A stretch of 64,000 nucleotides of DNA from Candidatus Fermentithermobacillaceae bacterium (GTDB lineage: Bacteria > Bacillota > Sulfobacillia > Fermentithermobacillales > Fermentithermobacillaceae). Below, in pieces: positions 40,205-50,528 of this stretch. The stretch spans positions 1-64,000 of the forward strand of contig DUSI01000044.1 in assembly GCA_012842685.1 (NCBI GenBank). The letters are read 5' to 3'. A program made the translations under genes and the position numbers. The notes below the pieces were generated by a model. It did not search any database. It saw only the letters and a program-made list of their open reading frames with translations, and was not told the DNA's origin. Every line of letters begins with the position of its first letter. The stretch's first letter is position 1.

Positions 40205-41551
40205 ATGTTCTCAGTGGAGAGGCTCTTGGAATACGGCCCTCTGGGGCTTTTCCTTGTGGCCTTCTTCGAATCCACCGTGTTTCCAATACCCCCTGACGTC
40301 CTGCTCTTTCCTCTTTGCCTGATGAACCCCAGGCTGTCCTGGTGGTATGCGTTCCTGGCCACCGCCGCTTCGATCTTGGGCGCGTTTCTCGGCTACGCGG
40401 CCGGCCGCAAGGCGGGTAGGCCCGTGGTGGAGAGGTTTTTCGCCCGCGAAGTGGTCGAAAAGGTGGAAGCACTGTTCAGGAAATACGGAGGCTGGGCTGT
40501 CGGCATAGCCGCGTTCACTCCGGTGCCATACAAAGTCTTCACGTTGGGTGCGGGTCTCTTTCGCGTGCCGTTCTTCACCTTCACGGTGGCTTCGGTGATA
40601 GGGCGCGCCGGGAGGTTTTTCCTTGAAGGGGGCATGGTCTATTTCCTCGGTGAGCGAGCCCGGAGTTACCTCGGAAGGGATTTCGAGATTGCCACGCTGG
40701 CACTTACCGCAGTCTTGCTCGTTGGTGTGGCTGTGTTCCCCAAGATAGGCGCATACCTCAGGAAGTATCGCATCTTCGACCGCCCGGTGTACCGCAGACT
40801 GGCGAGGATTGCTTCCGGAACAAAAGCCAGTTTGAGCTCGCTCAGGGCCTTGGGTATAAGGTTCCTGGCGGGAGTGAGCGCTTCCCTGGTCTTGCTCTTG
40901 CTGGTAGTCTCCTTCTTGTGGGACCTAGCGGGGCCTGAAAGGGCGGCACTCAACCGGAGTCTTACGCCCGTCTATGAGCGGATGTCCGAAATATTGGGGG
41001 TACGGTCCGGCCCCGGCTTCTGGAGCATATGGAGGGTGCCGTGGATCTGGGCTTCTCTGGCGCTCGCCGGGATCGTGCGGTGGATATCCTGGGAGTCCCG
41101 GAGGAGGTCTGGGTACATGTTCGATGCCTGGAGTACTGAAGCCGGAGACTCCGGCGCAACACGCCCACTGGTTCCTCGGTCGGAGCCATCCCTCTTGTCC
41201 GGGAACGTCCTCCGGATGGTCCTGCTCGTCGTGGGTTCCTTCACATGCGAGATCGTCGTAGGTGGTTTTGTCAGTCGTGCATACGGGACGCGCCCCCTGT
41301 TCTCGGGGGGAGAGGCCTTCCTGGCGCCATACTTCCTGGTATTTGGGACCTACCTCCTGTCCAAGGGGATCCCCAAGGCGGTCCAGATTCCGCTGTTGGT
41401 CGCCGCATCTTTCCTCGCCGCCGGGAACCTGGTACACGTTGTTTCGGCTTCCACGCTGGACGCGGCCGCTGCCACCGCCTCACTGCTTGTAAGCTTCCTC
41501 ATGTCCGCCGTTTCCTACACCGTGTTAGTCTACCGCCGTGACGGCGGCTAG
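40205..41551 (+). CDS. DedA/VTT-family membrane protein fused to a second membrane domain
   Basis: This 448-residue protein starts with a DedA (VTT) domain (about 1-190): FFESTVFPIPPDVLL, then GAFLGYAAGRKAGRP and AAFTPVPYKVFTLGAGLF with the reentrant-loop prolines. DedA proteins are implicated in lipid-carrier recycling (UPP or phosphatidylethanolamine). The second half (about 215-445) has six more hydrophobic segments that I cannot assign; the PAP2 motif PSGH is absent. At 448 residues it is about twice a normal DedA. ATG 40205 is 28 bases after rnpB, preceded by GGCGGTGCGAG. Confidence 0.82.
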   Translation: MFSVERLLEYGPLGLFLVAFFESTVFPIPPDVLLFPLCLMNPRLSWWYAFLATAASILGAFLGYAAGRKAGRPVVERFFAREVVEKVEALFRKYGGWAVGIAAFTPVPYKVFTLGAGLFRVPFFTFTVASVIGRAGRFFLEGGMVYFLGERARSYLGRDFEIATLALTAVLLVGVAVFPKIGAYLRKYRIFDRPVYRRLARIASGTKASLSSLRALGIRFLAGVSASLVLLLLVVSFLWDLAGPERAALNRSLTPVYERMSEILGVRSGPGFWSIWRVPWIWASLALAGIVRWISWESRRRSGYMFDAWSTEAGDSGATRPLVPRSEPSLLSGNVLRMVLLVVGSFTCEIVVGGFVSRAYGTRPLFSGGEAFLAPYFLVFGTYLLSKGIPKAVQIPLLVAASFLAAGNLVHVVSASTLDAAAATASLLVSFLMSAVSYTVLVYRRDGG

Positions 41552-41588: not shown

Positions 41589-42115
41589 GGGACGGTTCCT
41601 TTTCGTCAAAGACTTGCGGAAAATCCGGACGATCTGTCTGTGGGCTCCGTGAGCTGGTTACGTCTTGTCCGGGACTTCTGAGACACGGTGACGATATGTC
41701 TGTGGTCTCGGCGAGACGGTTACGTTTTGTCCGGGACTTGCGGAAGACGGTGACGGTATGTCTGTGACCTCGGCGAGACGGTTACGTTTTATCCGGGACT
41801 TGCGGAAGACGGTGACAGTATGTCCGTGACCTGGGCGAGACGGTTACGTTTTGTCCGGGACTTGCAGAGGACGGTGACAATATGTCCATGACCTCGGCGA
41901 GACGGTTACGTTTTGTCCGGGACTTGCAGAGGACGGTGACAATATGTCCGTGACCTCGGCGAGACGCTTACGCTTCGCCCGGGTCTTCCAGAAGACGGTG
42001 ATGATTTGTCTGGGAGATTGACGAGTTGGTTACGTTTTGTCCAAGAACCACGGGAGATGGTTACGATCTGTCCCCAAGGGCTCGCGGGAGAGAGACATTT
42101 CGTCCCGGACTTCCT
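41589..42115. repeat. 31-bp tandem repeat array with 62-bp A/B higher-order period
   Basis: About 17 consecutive 31-base units fill most of the 645-base gap between the DedA fusion and the next gene. Type A units start at 41651, 41713, 41775, 41837, 41899, 41961 and 42023 (core GGTTACGTTTTGTCCGGG). Type B units start at 41682, 41744, 41806, 41868, 41930 and 41992 (core GGTGACGGTATGTCTGTG). A and B alternate and share ACGGT-ACG---TGTC. Units before 41651 and after 42053 are more decayed. No spacer lies between units, and no reading frame runs through it. The rest of the gap (42116-42196) contains one stray repeat fragment near 42131. Confidence 0.85.
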
Positions 42116-42196
42116 GGCAGATTTCCTGCCGGTTCGTTACGTTCTGTCTACCGGGTTCGTCCCCTGCCCGCCGCCAGGCTAACCCGCGACTTACCC

Positions 42197-42661
42197 TCAG
42201 CTTCTTTCCCGGTTAGCTTCCCTGACGGATTCCTCGCTGACCGCGTAGCCGAGGATTAGACCGTATGCCAGGCTGCCCGCGAGGGTGAACAGCGTTGTGG
42301 GCGTGCCGAGGCTCCAAGGAGCCGATGCCAGTCCGGATGGCGCCGAAAGCGCCCCCCAGGCGAGCCAGATGAGCAGCCCGTAGATGACGCCGCCGATCAG
42401 GTTGTGCCTCGAATGGAGCGCCCGGGTGATGGCGGCGAAGATGATCGCCAGCAGGGCTCCTATCAGTATGTGCACCACGAAGCCGAGGATCTGCCCGCTG
42501 GGAGTCGTAGACACGGCTTGGGTCGTGAACAGCCTTGCCAGCGCCGACAGCATGTTCGTCTGCACCCATCCCGCGCCGCGTCCTATGAGAAGGAGTACGT
42601 CTTGCGCTACCGTTCCGATTACGCCGCCCCAGAGGGCTCTCGTCCAAAGATTCCTAGTCAA
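42197..42661 (-). CDS. YqhR-like/DUF1440-like small membrane protein
   Basis: This 154-residue protein has four hydrophobic segments and resembles small conserved membrane proteins of Bacillota (WGGVIGTVAQDVLLLIG, then ILGFVVHILIGALLAIIF and GGVIYGLLIWLAWG). No function is known to me. TTG 42661 follows GGGAGGG by six bases and is preferred to the GTG at 42676. It lies next to the repeat array and 86 bases from the dinB stop, on the same strand, so it may share the dinB transcript. Confidence 0.7.
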   Translation of the reverse strand: MTRNLWTRALWGGVIGTVAQDVLLLIGRGAGWVQTNMLSALARLFTTQAVSTTPSGQILGFVVHILIGALLAIIFAAITRALHSRHNLIGGVIYGLLIWLAWGALSAPSGLASAPWSLGTPTTLFTLAGSLAYGLILGYAVSEESVREANRERS

Positions 42662-42747
42662 CCCTATCCCTCCCACCCGTAGTATTGGCAGGGTGGGGGA
42701 GGGAGATATGCAGTGGTTTCAGCGAGCGAATGGCCAACCTTCCGCAG

Positions 42748-47918: not shown

Positions 47919-48038
47919 GCGGTCTTGCTGGGATAATGTACCGGCGCGCTCTTGCCCAGCTGTTTCCATCTCCAACCATATTCCTCACGCCTCTTGCGAT
48001 ATATATGGACGAATCGCAAAAGAGGAGGAGGCGGTATC

Positions 48039-50528
48039 GTGTACAAGCAGCGCAAACTGCGGAGCACGTCCGCAGTGGTCACGCTGGCTCTCGCCCTGGC
48101 GCTTGTCTTTGTCTCTGCAGCGCCGGGCTTTGCGCAGGCGAAAAGCCCGGGCAAAGGTAAGGACGTCGCGAAAATCGTCCAGGAAGCCCAGAAGAACTTG
48201 GCAAAGCAAATAAGCCTCTATTTCTATGACCTGCAAGACGCCCTCTGGGCGATAGCGGCTATCGCCAGGATGAAAGGGTTTGGCATCATAAACGGCTATG
48301 AAGGCAACGTGTTTAAGCCCAACAACCCTGTCACTCAGGCGGAAGCCCTGGCGATGATCGTCAGGGCCCTCGACATGGAGAAAGAGGCCCAGGAGATCGC
48401 CCGCAGGTTCGCGGGAACTTATGATGCTTTTGGCTATGAGCCGGATAACAGCATGTATCTCATGGACTGGGACCGGTTCAGCGATGTAAGAGAGCTCGAG
48501 GAGTACCTGGAGAACCTCGCCGCTTACCTGCAGTCCAAGAGCAAGAAGGTAAACGGACAGTACCTGCCCTTCGTGCCCTCAAACACGCGTTGGGCCCTCG
48601 GGTATATCCTCCTGGCGGTTGACCAGGGATGGGTTAGAATCTCCGAAGTGAACCCCAACGCTCCGGCGAGCAGGGCATGGGTTTCCATGGTGATGGTCCG
48701 AGCCCTCGGATATGAAGACGAAGCCCTCGCCCAGATGAAGGTGAAGCTCCCCTACAAGGACGCGAGTGCCATACCCAAAGACATGGTCGGGTATGTGGCG
48801 GTTGCGGTTGAGCTTGGTCTTTTCCAGGGATACCCTGGCGGCACGTTCCAGCCGAACAAGGCCGTGACGAGGGCCGAGATGGCGACCATCATCGACCGTT
48901 TCCTGACCGGGGAGCTCCCTGAGGAGACCGATTACCGCGTCCGGGGCACCGTAACGCAGATAAGCAAGAACAAGGTTACCGTGAAGACTTCATCCGGCCG
49001 GACGGTTGCGTTCACCATATCCAAGGATGCCCTCATCCTGGTGGGCAATAGGCCCGGCGGGTGGGACGACCTGAGCGTAGGCGACACGGTTGAGATCCTT
49101 TCCAACGGTCAGGGCGTGGCCCTTCTCATAACTCTCTTGGAGGATGTCTCGAAGCCCGAGCCCAAGACCGTTTCCGGCGAGATAGTCTTTATCGCCAGCG
49201 AGAGGAGGCTCTTCGTCGAAGACTCCGGCGGCGACATCCATCTCATCAAACTCGCCCCGAACTGCAAGATCACCTACGGTTCCGCGACTTTGGCCTTCGA
49301 AGACCTGCGTGTGGGAGATAAGGTGCAGGCGACGGTCGGGGCGAATGACCTCGTCACCGCGCTCAAGGTAACGTCGAGACCTCAGGTAACGGTCACGGGT
49401 ACCATAGTGTCTATCCCCGGAAGCCGCAGGCTCAGTATCGAGACTTCTGCGGGCACGGTGCAGACGATCAGGCTGGCGTCGAATTGTAAGATCACCTACG
49501 GTTCTGCCACTCTGGCCTTCGAGGACTTGCGTGTCGGAGACAAGGTCCAGGCGACCATAGGTCCCGACGACCTGGTTACCGCCCTCAAGGTGACCGCCAG
49601 GGGCGAGGTAAAGGTGACCGGCACGATCGTGTCTATCCCTGGAAGCCGCAGGCTGGACATTGAAGGCTCAACAGGGAAGGTCCAGACCATCAGGCTGGCG
49701 CCTAGCTGCAAGATCACCTACGGTTCCACGGCACTGGCCTTCGAAGAGCTGCGCGTGAGCGACAAAATCGAGGCCACTATCGGCGATAGCGACCTCGTGA
49801 CGGCCATCAAGGTGATCGAGCGGGCGCCGGAGACTGTCACCGGCAAGATAGTCTCCATCCCCGGAGTGAGGAGGATTACCGTCAAGGACGCCGGTGGCGA
49901 CGTTCAGATCGTAAGGCTCGCTTCCGACTGCAAGATAACCTGGGGCTCCCGCACACTCGTCTTCGACGACCTCCGCATCGGAGATGAGGTCGTGGCTACG
50001 CTCGGCGATAGCGGCATGGCCACTTCGGTAAAGGTGACTACCCGCGGAGAGAAAAACGAGACCCTCACCGGAGTCATAGAGACCATCACCAAGACGAAAA
50101 CGGGATACACCGTGGTCATCGCCAAGCAGGGCGGAGGCGACGTGGCCCATGCTTTGGCGGGCGATGTGTACATTTCCTACGGGACCGAAGTGCTGAAGCC
50201 CGAAGACTTGAGGGTAGGCGATGAAATCAAGGCCACGGTCGCCGGAGGGAAACTGGTCGAGATCATAATAAAGATCCGCGGAAATAGCATAGAGTTCGGC
50301 GATGTGGGCGGAGTCATCATATCCATCAGCCAGAGTGCCCAGCAGTTCATCGTGACGGTCGACGACGACGGCGACCCCACCTCGTTCTCGGTGCCGTCCG
50401 GATGCACCATCAAGTACGGCACGACGACGCTGAGACGCACCGACCTTCGCCTCGGCGACGTGATCAGGGCCGAGCTCGATGCCAGGGGCGAGGCCGTGGA
50501 GATACGAGTGATTTCCCGGGATCAATAA
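48039..50528 (+). CDS. S-layer homology (SLH) domain protein with seven beta repeats
   Basis: This 829-residue protein has a signal peptide (ending about AAPGFA), then three SLH domains (about 55-105, 170-230 and 245-295; the last with GLFQGYPGGTFQPNKAVTRAE) that bind secondary cell-wall polymer. From about 300 to the end seven DUF5666-like repeats of about 75 residues each carry the pattern of a TGTIVSI strand, CKITYG and LRVGDKVQA. Repeats 2-5 are very alike, also in DNA (49260-49780). It is probably a surface-layer or adhesion protein. GTG 48039 follows GAGGAGGAGG by seven bases; a bidirectional terminator follows. Confidence 0.92.
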   Translation: MYKQRKLRSTSAVVTLALALALVFVSAAPGFAQAKSPGKGKDVAKIVQEAQKNLAKQISLYFYDLQDALWAIAAIARMKGFGIINGYEGNVFKPNNPVTQAEALAMIVRALDMEKEAQEIARRFAGTYDAFGYEPDNSMYLMDWDRFSDVRELEEYLENLAAYLQSKSKKVNGQYLPFVPSNTRWALGYILLAVDQGWVRISEVNPNAPASRAWVSMVMVRALGYEDEALAQMKVKLPYKDASAIPKDMVGYVAVAVELGLFQGYPGGTFQPNKAVTRAEMATIIDRFLTGELPEETDYRVRGTVTQISKNKVTVKTSSGRTVAFTISKDALILVGNRPGGWDDLSVGDTVEILSNGQGVALLITLLEDVSKPEPKTVSGEIVFIASERRLFVEDSGGDIHLIKLAPNCKITYGSATLAFEDLRVGDKVQATVGANDLVTALKVTSRPQVTVTGTIVSIPGSRRLSIETSAGTVQTIRLASNCKITYGSATLAFEDLRVGDKVQATIGPDDLVTALKVTARGEVKVTGTIVSIPGSRRLDIEGSTGKVQTIRLAPSCKITYGSTALAFEELRVSDKIEATIGDSDLVTAIKVIERAPETVTGKIVSIPGVRRITVKDAGGDVQIVRLASDCKITWGSRTLVFDDLRIGDEVVATLGDSGMATSVKVTTRGEKNETLTGVIETITKTKTGYTVVIAKQGGGDVAHALAGDVYISYGTEVLKPEDLRVGDEIKATVAGGKLVEIIIKIRGNSIEFGDVGGVIISISQSAQQFIVTVDDDGDPTSFSVPSGCTIKYGTTTLRRTDLRLGDVIRAELDARGEAVEIRVISRDQ

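Follow-up and report, generated by a model that had tools for sequence, protein, structure and literature searches.

Intergenic arrays of a 31-bp repeat in Candidatus Fermentithermobacillaceae, putative rows of protein-binding sites with a clade-specific distribution

Background

Dispersed repeats of bacteria are usually palindromic, derived from transposons, or plain minisatellites. The locus described here raises the question of where a long run of exactly 31-bp units, situated between two genes of a Candidatus Fermentithermobacillaceae bacterium, belongs: is it a row of protein-binding sites, the remnant of a mobile element, a partition site, or repetitive DNA without function? We analysed the window, i.e. 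the whole stretch of 64,000 nucleotides that contains the run, along with its own genome (G000; 1.89 Mb in 66 contigs, 97.5% complete) and those of relatives, among them the congeners G001, G002 and G003. The class of Bacillota to which the host belongs has been described (PMC10215811).

Structure and setting of the array

The tandem array proved genuine. A scan for the core sequence delimited 18 head-to-tail units at 41594-42149, each made of the core GGTKACGNTNTGTCY followed by approximately 16 less conserved bases. The regular part (41594..42089, + strand) comprises 16 units of exactly 31 bp, as seen by core scan, spacing table, Tandem Repeats Finder and lag identities alike; fifteen exact 31-bp intervals follow in succession from 41594 to 42059. 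At the frayed end (42091..42149, + strand), two degenerate cores at 42091 and 42135 come after intervals of 32 and 44 bp. The limits first given for the array, 41589-42115, therefore needed slight correction, to a start near 41594 and a fraying out near 42149.

Superimposed on this register is a longer one. Tandem Repeats Finder reported a period of 62 bp in 6.7 copies (41628-42042) and a period of 31 bp in 9.7 copies (41666-41966), and the self-identity of the array was 0.61 at a lag of 31, 0.84 at 62, 0.62 at 93 and 0.81 at 124, while neighbouring lags reached just 0.23-0.29. The strict 62-bp alternation of the original prediction holds from 41687 to 41996, where units of type A (GGTTACGTTTTGTCCGGGACTTGC...) and type B (GGTGACRATATGTCCGTGACCTCGG...) take turns; it does not extend to the ends of the array, where the outer units are degenerate and the super-period is absent.

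Upstream, the array is preceded at a distance of 43 bp by the stop codon of a gene for a VTT-domain (DedA-like) membrane protein (40205..41551, + strand; Pfam PF09335). Downstream, a convergent gene for a DUF6789/YqhR-like membrane protein (42197..42676, - strand; Pfam PF20587) ends 47 bp past the last degenerate core. The view that the array is non-coding was supported. Elsewhere in the window, a 222-bp tandem repeat of 2.5 copies (49257-49815) lies inside a coding region, an 858-aa open reading frame at 47952-50528.

The array was also compared with CRISPR arrays. These require identical repeats and unique spacers of about 25-40 bp, whereas the spacers found here measure 12-16 bp and are reiterated in 62-bp dimers, so that a CRISPR origin was rejected.

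Dispersed arrays of the same family

The original prediction had proposed to search the genome and its relatives for the 31-mer. Arrays of the same family, termed F1, with the core GGTTACGNTTYGTCC in 31-bp register, occur at at least nine intergenic loci of G000 (contigs C8, C10, C26, C34, C38, C47, C52 and C63, plus C42). At up to three mismatches, 50 core pairs were found in this genome and none with the reversed control pattern. Individual arrays hold 5-18 units. All loci examined are intergenic, those on C8, C10, C26, C34 and C63 being bounded on one side by the end of the contig. Numbers and lengths of F1 arrays are lower bounds, because some arrays lie at contig ends (C8 in G000 and C108 in G002 end within an array) and an N gap interrupts one of a relative (C106 in G002). 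A core variant, GTTCCNTTTCGTC in place of GTTACGTTTTGTCC, is frequent near array ends (41594 in the window; L028:8157; L027:37; L111).

Such dispersal bears on the suggestion of a single partition site. Plasmid-like iterons or a centromere-like array would share the architecture of direct sites at integral helical turns; plasmid Rep iterons and parC-type repeats, too, are direct repeats with a 15-20 bp core at near-integral turns. However, F1 arrays occupy at least nine dispersed chromosomal loci, have no adjacent partner gene and step by 31 bp, not by the roughly 11 or 20-22 bp known from those systems. No par or rep gene was present among the flanking genes examined, and phage and plasmid collections contained no match. 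A role in partition or replication is thus highly improbable, and that part of the prediction was not supported.

The genes next to F1 arrays are diverse. Pfam matches identified a VTT protein, DUF6789, Rrf2, DUF438, NusG_II, an S10 peptidase and a deacetylase, and recN, spoIVB and purC were read from sequence. Neither the contents of the neighbouring genes, nor their geometry (convergent, tandem or divergent), nor the replication strand yielded a common rule. The missing rule is unusual for a regulatory site and counts against the explanation that we favour below; it might also point to a role in structure and not in the control of particular genes.

Where the two genes are in tandem, the array runs in the sense direction. 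This would suit a transcribed repeat, in which each unit forms a hairpin or binding motif within the 3' untranslated part of the upstream gene's transcript, and the + strand of the window array folds somewhat better than shuffled sequences (z -3.7). Nevertheless, divergent gene pairs have arrays between them as well, fold energy is biased by the mere presence of repeats, and no column pair or antidiagonal covaried consistently among 79-128 non-redundant units. Rfam returned no match in the window array, and nearby only RNase P. We consider a structured RNA very unlikely. In several units the spacers appeared palindromic by eye; a hairpin per unit was rejected when the column-pair tests over all units proved negative.

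Occurrence in related genomes

Beyond G000, 31-bp arrays were detected in two of its congeners, at three loci in G002 and four in G003, with a species-specific core; that of G003, GGTTACYTTTTGTACATGA, is slightly unlike the core of G000. At the search sensitivity used, no F1 array was found in G001 or in 117 further relatives. The G000-type core pair had no occurrence in 84,980 GTDB genomes, a search pattern that would miss the core of G002 and G003, while neither core type had a match in IMG/VR. Nothing relevant on intergenic arrays of 31-bp repeats came up in searches of the literature.

Two loci could be followed between species, each species being represented by one draft genome. An array lies between recN and spoIVB in G000, G002 and G003; the corresponding gap in G001 and in other genera with an intact locus is plain and 79-148 bp long. 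The gap downstream of the DedA-like gene holds an array in G000 and G002 and none in G003, so that presence varies among congeners at conserved loci, a point against the explanation that we favour below. The empty sites (the DedA gap of G003 and the recN gap of G001) are too diverged to define junctions, at which terminal inverted repeats and a target duplication would be looked for.

A degenerate GGTCTC-rich repeat (L068:100-280) occupies the DedA-like gene gap of G001, where G000 and G002 hold the 31-bp array. The same genome, which lacks both F1 and the second family described below, contains on contig C99 (L198:1361-1554) an array that also has a 31-bp period but is built on a further motif, GGACGTGGTACCCATGAAAACCCGCCACCTG.

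The array had been suspected to be the end of a lost transposon, i.e. a set of transposase sites left by an IS21, Tn7, Mu or other DDE element. The ends of such elements typically carry several adjacent direct sites at fixed spacing, and the C38 array has a fragment of IS21 IstB at a distance of about 1.1 kb. However, G000 has no match to the rve domain, the motif is absent around 21 IstB and 9 rve loci of relatives, and the arrays stand singly, with neither transposase nor cargo. To our knowledge, 5-18 units also exceed the number of sites in known transposon ends. The transposon-end reading is therefore largely refuted, and we regard it as scarcely probable. Two contigs of G000 that each carry an array also contain, respectively, a probable IS1182-type transposase read by eye (L024:2521-3897) and an IS21 IstB fragment (L025:519-917), beside which the core motif does not occur.

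Conserved core, free spacer and fixed register

Comparison of units revealed a marked contrast within them. An F1 unit consists of a conserved core of 15-19 bp and a variable spacer of 12-16 bp. Between neighbouring units of G000, spacers mismatched at 0.61 of positions, or about 1.23 substitutions per site, and cores at 0.28; for G003 the corresponding values were 0.50 and 0.10. The conservation of the core is somewhat inflated, as units were detected through it. The contrast was reached in none of 20,000 column permutations (108 pairs). In G003, columns 3-6, 9, 12, 13, 15, 16 and 19 are invariant among 34 units from four loci, and the spacer is variable.

The register is kept with similar strictness. 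Of 138 intervals between detected cores, 112 measure exactly 31 bp and nine 32 bp, and some of the remainder are inflated by missed or spurious units; among near-regular intervals, 78 of 84 in G000 and 25 of 29 in G003 are exactly 31 bp. As most register positions of each array were detected, detection bias was judged unable to explain either the contrast or the near-absence of indels. The spacer is thus near saturation, yet register and core are kept, which is not predicted of a purely neutral minisatellite. Absence of conservation had been named beforehand as the mark of neutral DNA, and the core is conserved.

A conserved core, a fixed register and a free spacer are what distinguishes a phased array, and the proposal of phased protein sites accords well with them. 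Together with the position between recN and spoIVB and the species-specific change of the core, the conserved core, three-turn step and free spacer are expected of rows of protein sites. The explanation we favour, tentatively and at close to an even chance, is that F1 constitutes a clade-specific family of intergenic arrays which serve as direct sites for a putative sequence-specific DNA-binding protein. Since 31 bp is about three helical turns, bound copies would all lie on one face of the helix, evenly spaced, and might bind cooperatively. The benefit could lie in local DNA organisation or in regulation of neighbouring genes. As for wrapping of 30 bp by a histone of archaeal type, this idea was dismissed, the four genomes of the genus encoding no CBFD_NFYB_HMF protein.

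Evolution of the arrays

In most arrays, identity is higher at a lag of 62 bp than at one of 31 bp, in keeping with growth by dimers. Several pairs of G000 loci share the order of their units but not their flanks: C38 and C52 (73% over 544 bp), C34 and C47 (79% over 419 bp), and C10 and C26 (86.5% over 178 bp). Core positions 7 and 14 come close to identifying the species. The recN cores of G003 are more similar to other G003 loci (0.89) than to the orthologous recN cores of G000 (0.785). The less homogeneous recN array of G000 shows no such difference (0.783 against 0.785), and concerted evolution is therefore clear in G003 only. Homogenisation by dimer duplication and exchange is the best reading of these patterns.

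The same patterns form the case for a serious rival, a recombination-driven minisatellite. It would be a dispersed family without host function, growing by slippage or unequal exchange in steps of 31 or 62 bp and homogenised through exchange among loci. Dimers in most arrays, unit order shared without flanks, frayed ends, gain or loss between species, and the many tandem arrays with other periods between genes of the genus all agree with it. Under pure neutrality, on the other hand, core and spacer should diverge equally and indels build up, neither of which was seen. A further point against the rival is the period of exactly 31 bp common to two unrelated motifs (see below). Persistence of the core would be understandable if it drove its own copying, as a recombination or replication-stalling motif, or if seeds spread from locus to locus. 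We hold this rival to be possible, with chances clearly below even.

A second family and arrays of other periods

When 1.01 Mb of G000 was scanned by autocorrelation, a period of 62 bp came up nine times, one of 31 bp three times, and every further period between one and three times; a first-order Markov control of the sampled sequence contained no such arrays. About seven further loci of G000 belong to a second family of intergenic arrays, F2, with a core of approximately GGYGGANGAAATCGGAYGGTC and likewise a 31-bp period. Among these, with 16-26 units, are L227 and L228 on contig C20 (35.04-35.52 and 56.72-57.33 kb), L233 on C26 (82.69-83.56 kb) and L215 on C34 (18.1-18.7 kb). A sequence model of F2 gave 40 matches in G000 (also on C7, C48 and C65), 17 in G002 and two in G003. 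It had none in G001 and the remainder of the family, while genomes further away yielded three isolated matches of borderline quality. F1 and F2 were thus found in the same three species.

A common origin of the two families was considered but found no support: comparison of their position weight matrices gave p = 0.053 and 0.54, and the F2 model recovered no F1 array. As no similarity is demonstrable, the common period would reflect either very old descent or a common constraint. The geometry is thus better conserved than most of the sequence, two unrelated motifs holding the three-turn register across species.

Among known bacterial repeats, F1 recalls the mycobacterial interspersed repetitive units (MIRU) and other families of tandem repeats dispersed between genes. 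The likeness is one of architecture only: one type of repeat arranged head to tail at many intergenic loci (at least nine in G000, four in G003 and three in G002), with locus-specific copy number and similarity within the genome. MIRU units are longer, whereas F1 combines a fixed 31-bp register with a conserved core and a hyper-variable spacer, and is accompanied by a second, unrelated motif of equal period.

The shared register of unrelated families could be explained by a hitherto unknown DNA-organising system of the clade, in which proteins would sit at three-turn intervals on intergenic platforms, at least about 16 per genome, and species-specific cores would co-evolve with their binder. 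Such platforms could be regarded as a bacterial counterpart of satellite DNA, organised in higher-order dimers. We regard this wider proposal as unlikely. Should a protein read the arrays, it would amount to a new system of chromosome organisation or of regulation in an as yet uncultured class of Bacillota; otherwise, the arrays would offer a clean model of bacterial satellites that grow as dimers and evolve in concert.

The period of 31 bp is dominant but not unique, as arrays with periods of 17, 20, 26, 32, 34, 64 and 67 bp, apparently intergenic, also exist in the genus. In G000, two arrays with a 34-bp period (L215:15844-16096 and L239:7395-7619) consist of different motifs. An AT-rich tandem repeat of 63-64 bp occurs in G001 (L068:2142-2402), G002 (L113:7806-7997) and G000 (L239:8418-8586), and in G001 and G002 it is located upstream of the RNase P RNA gene.
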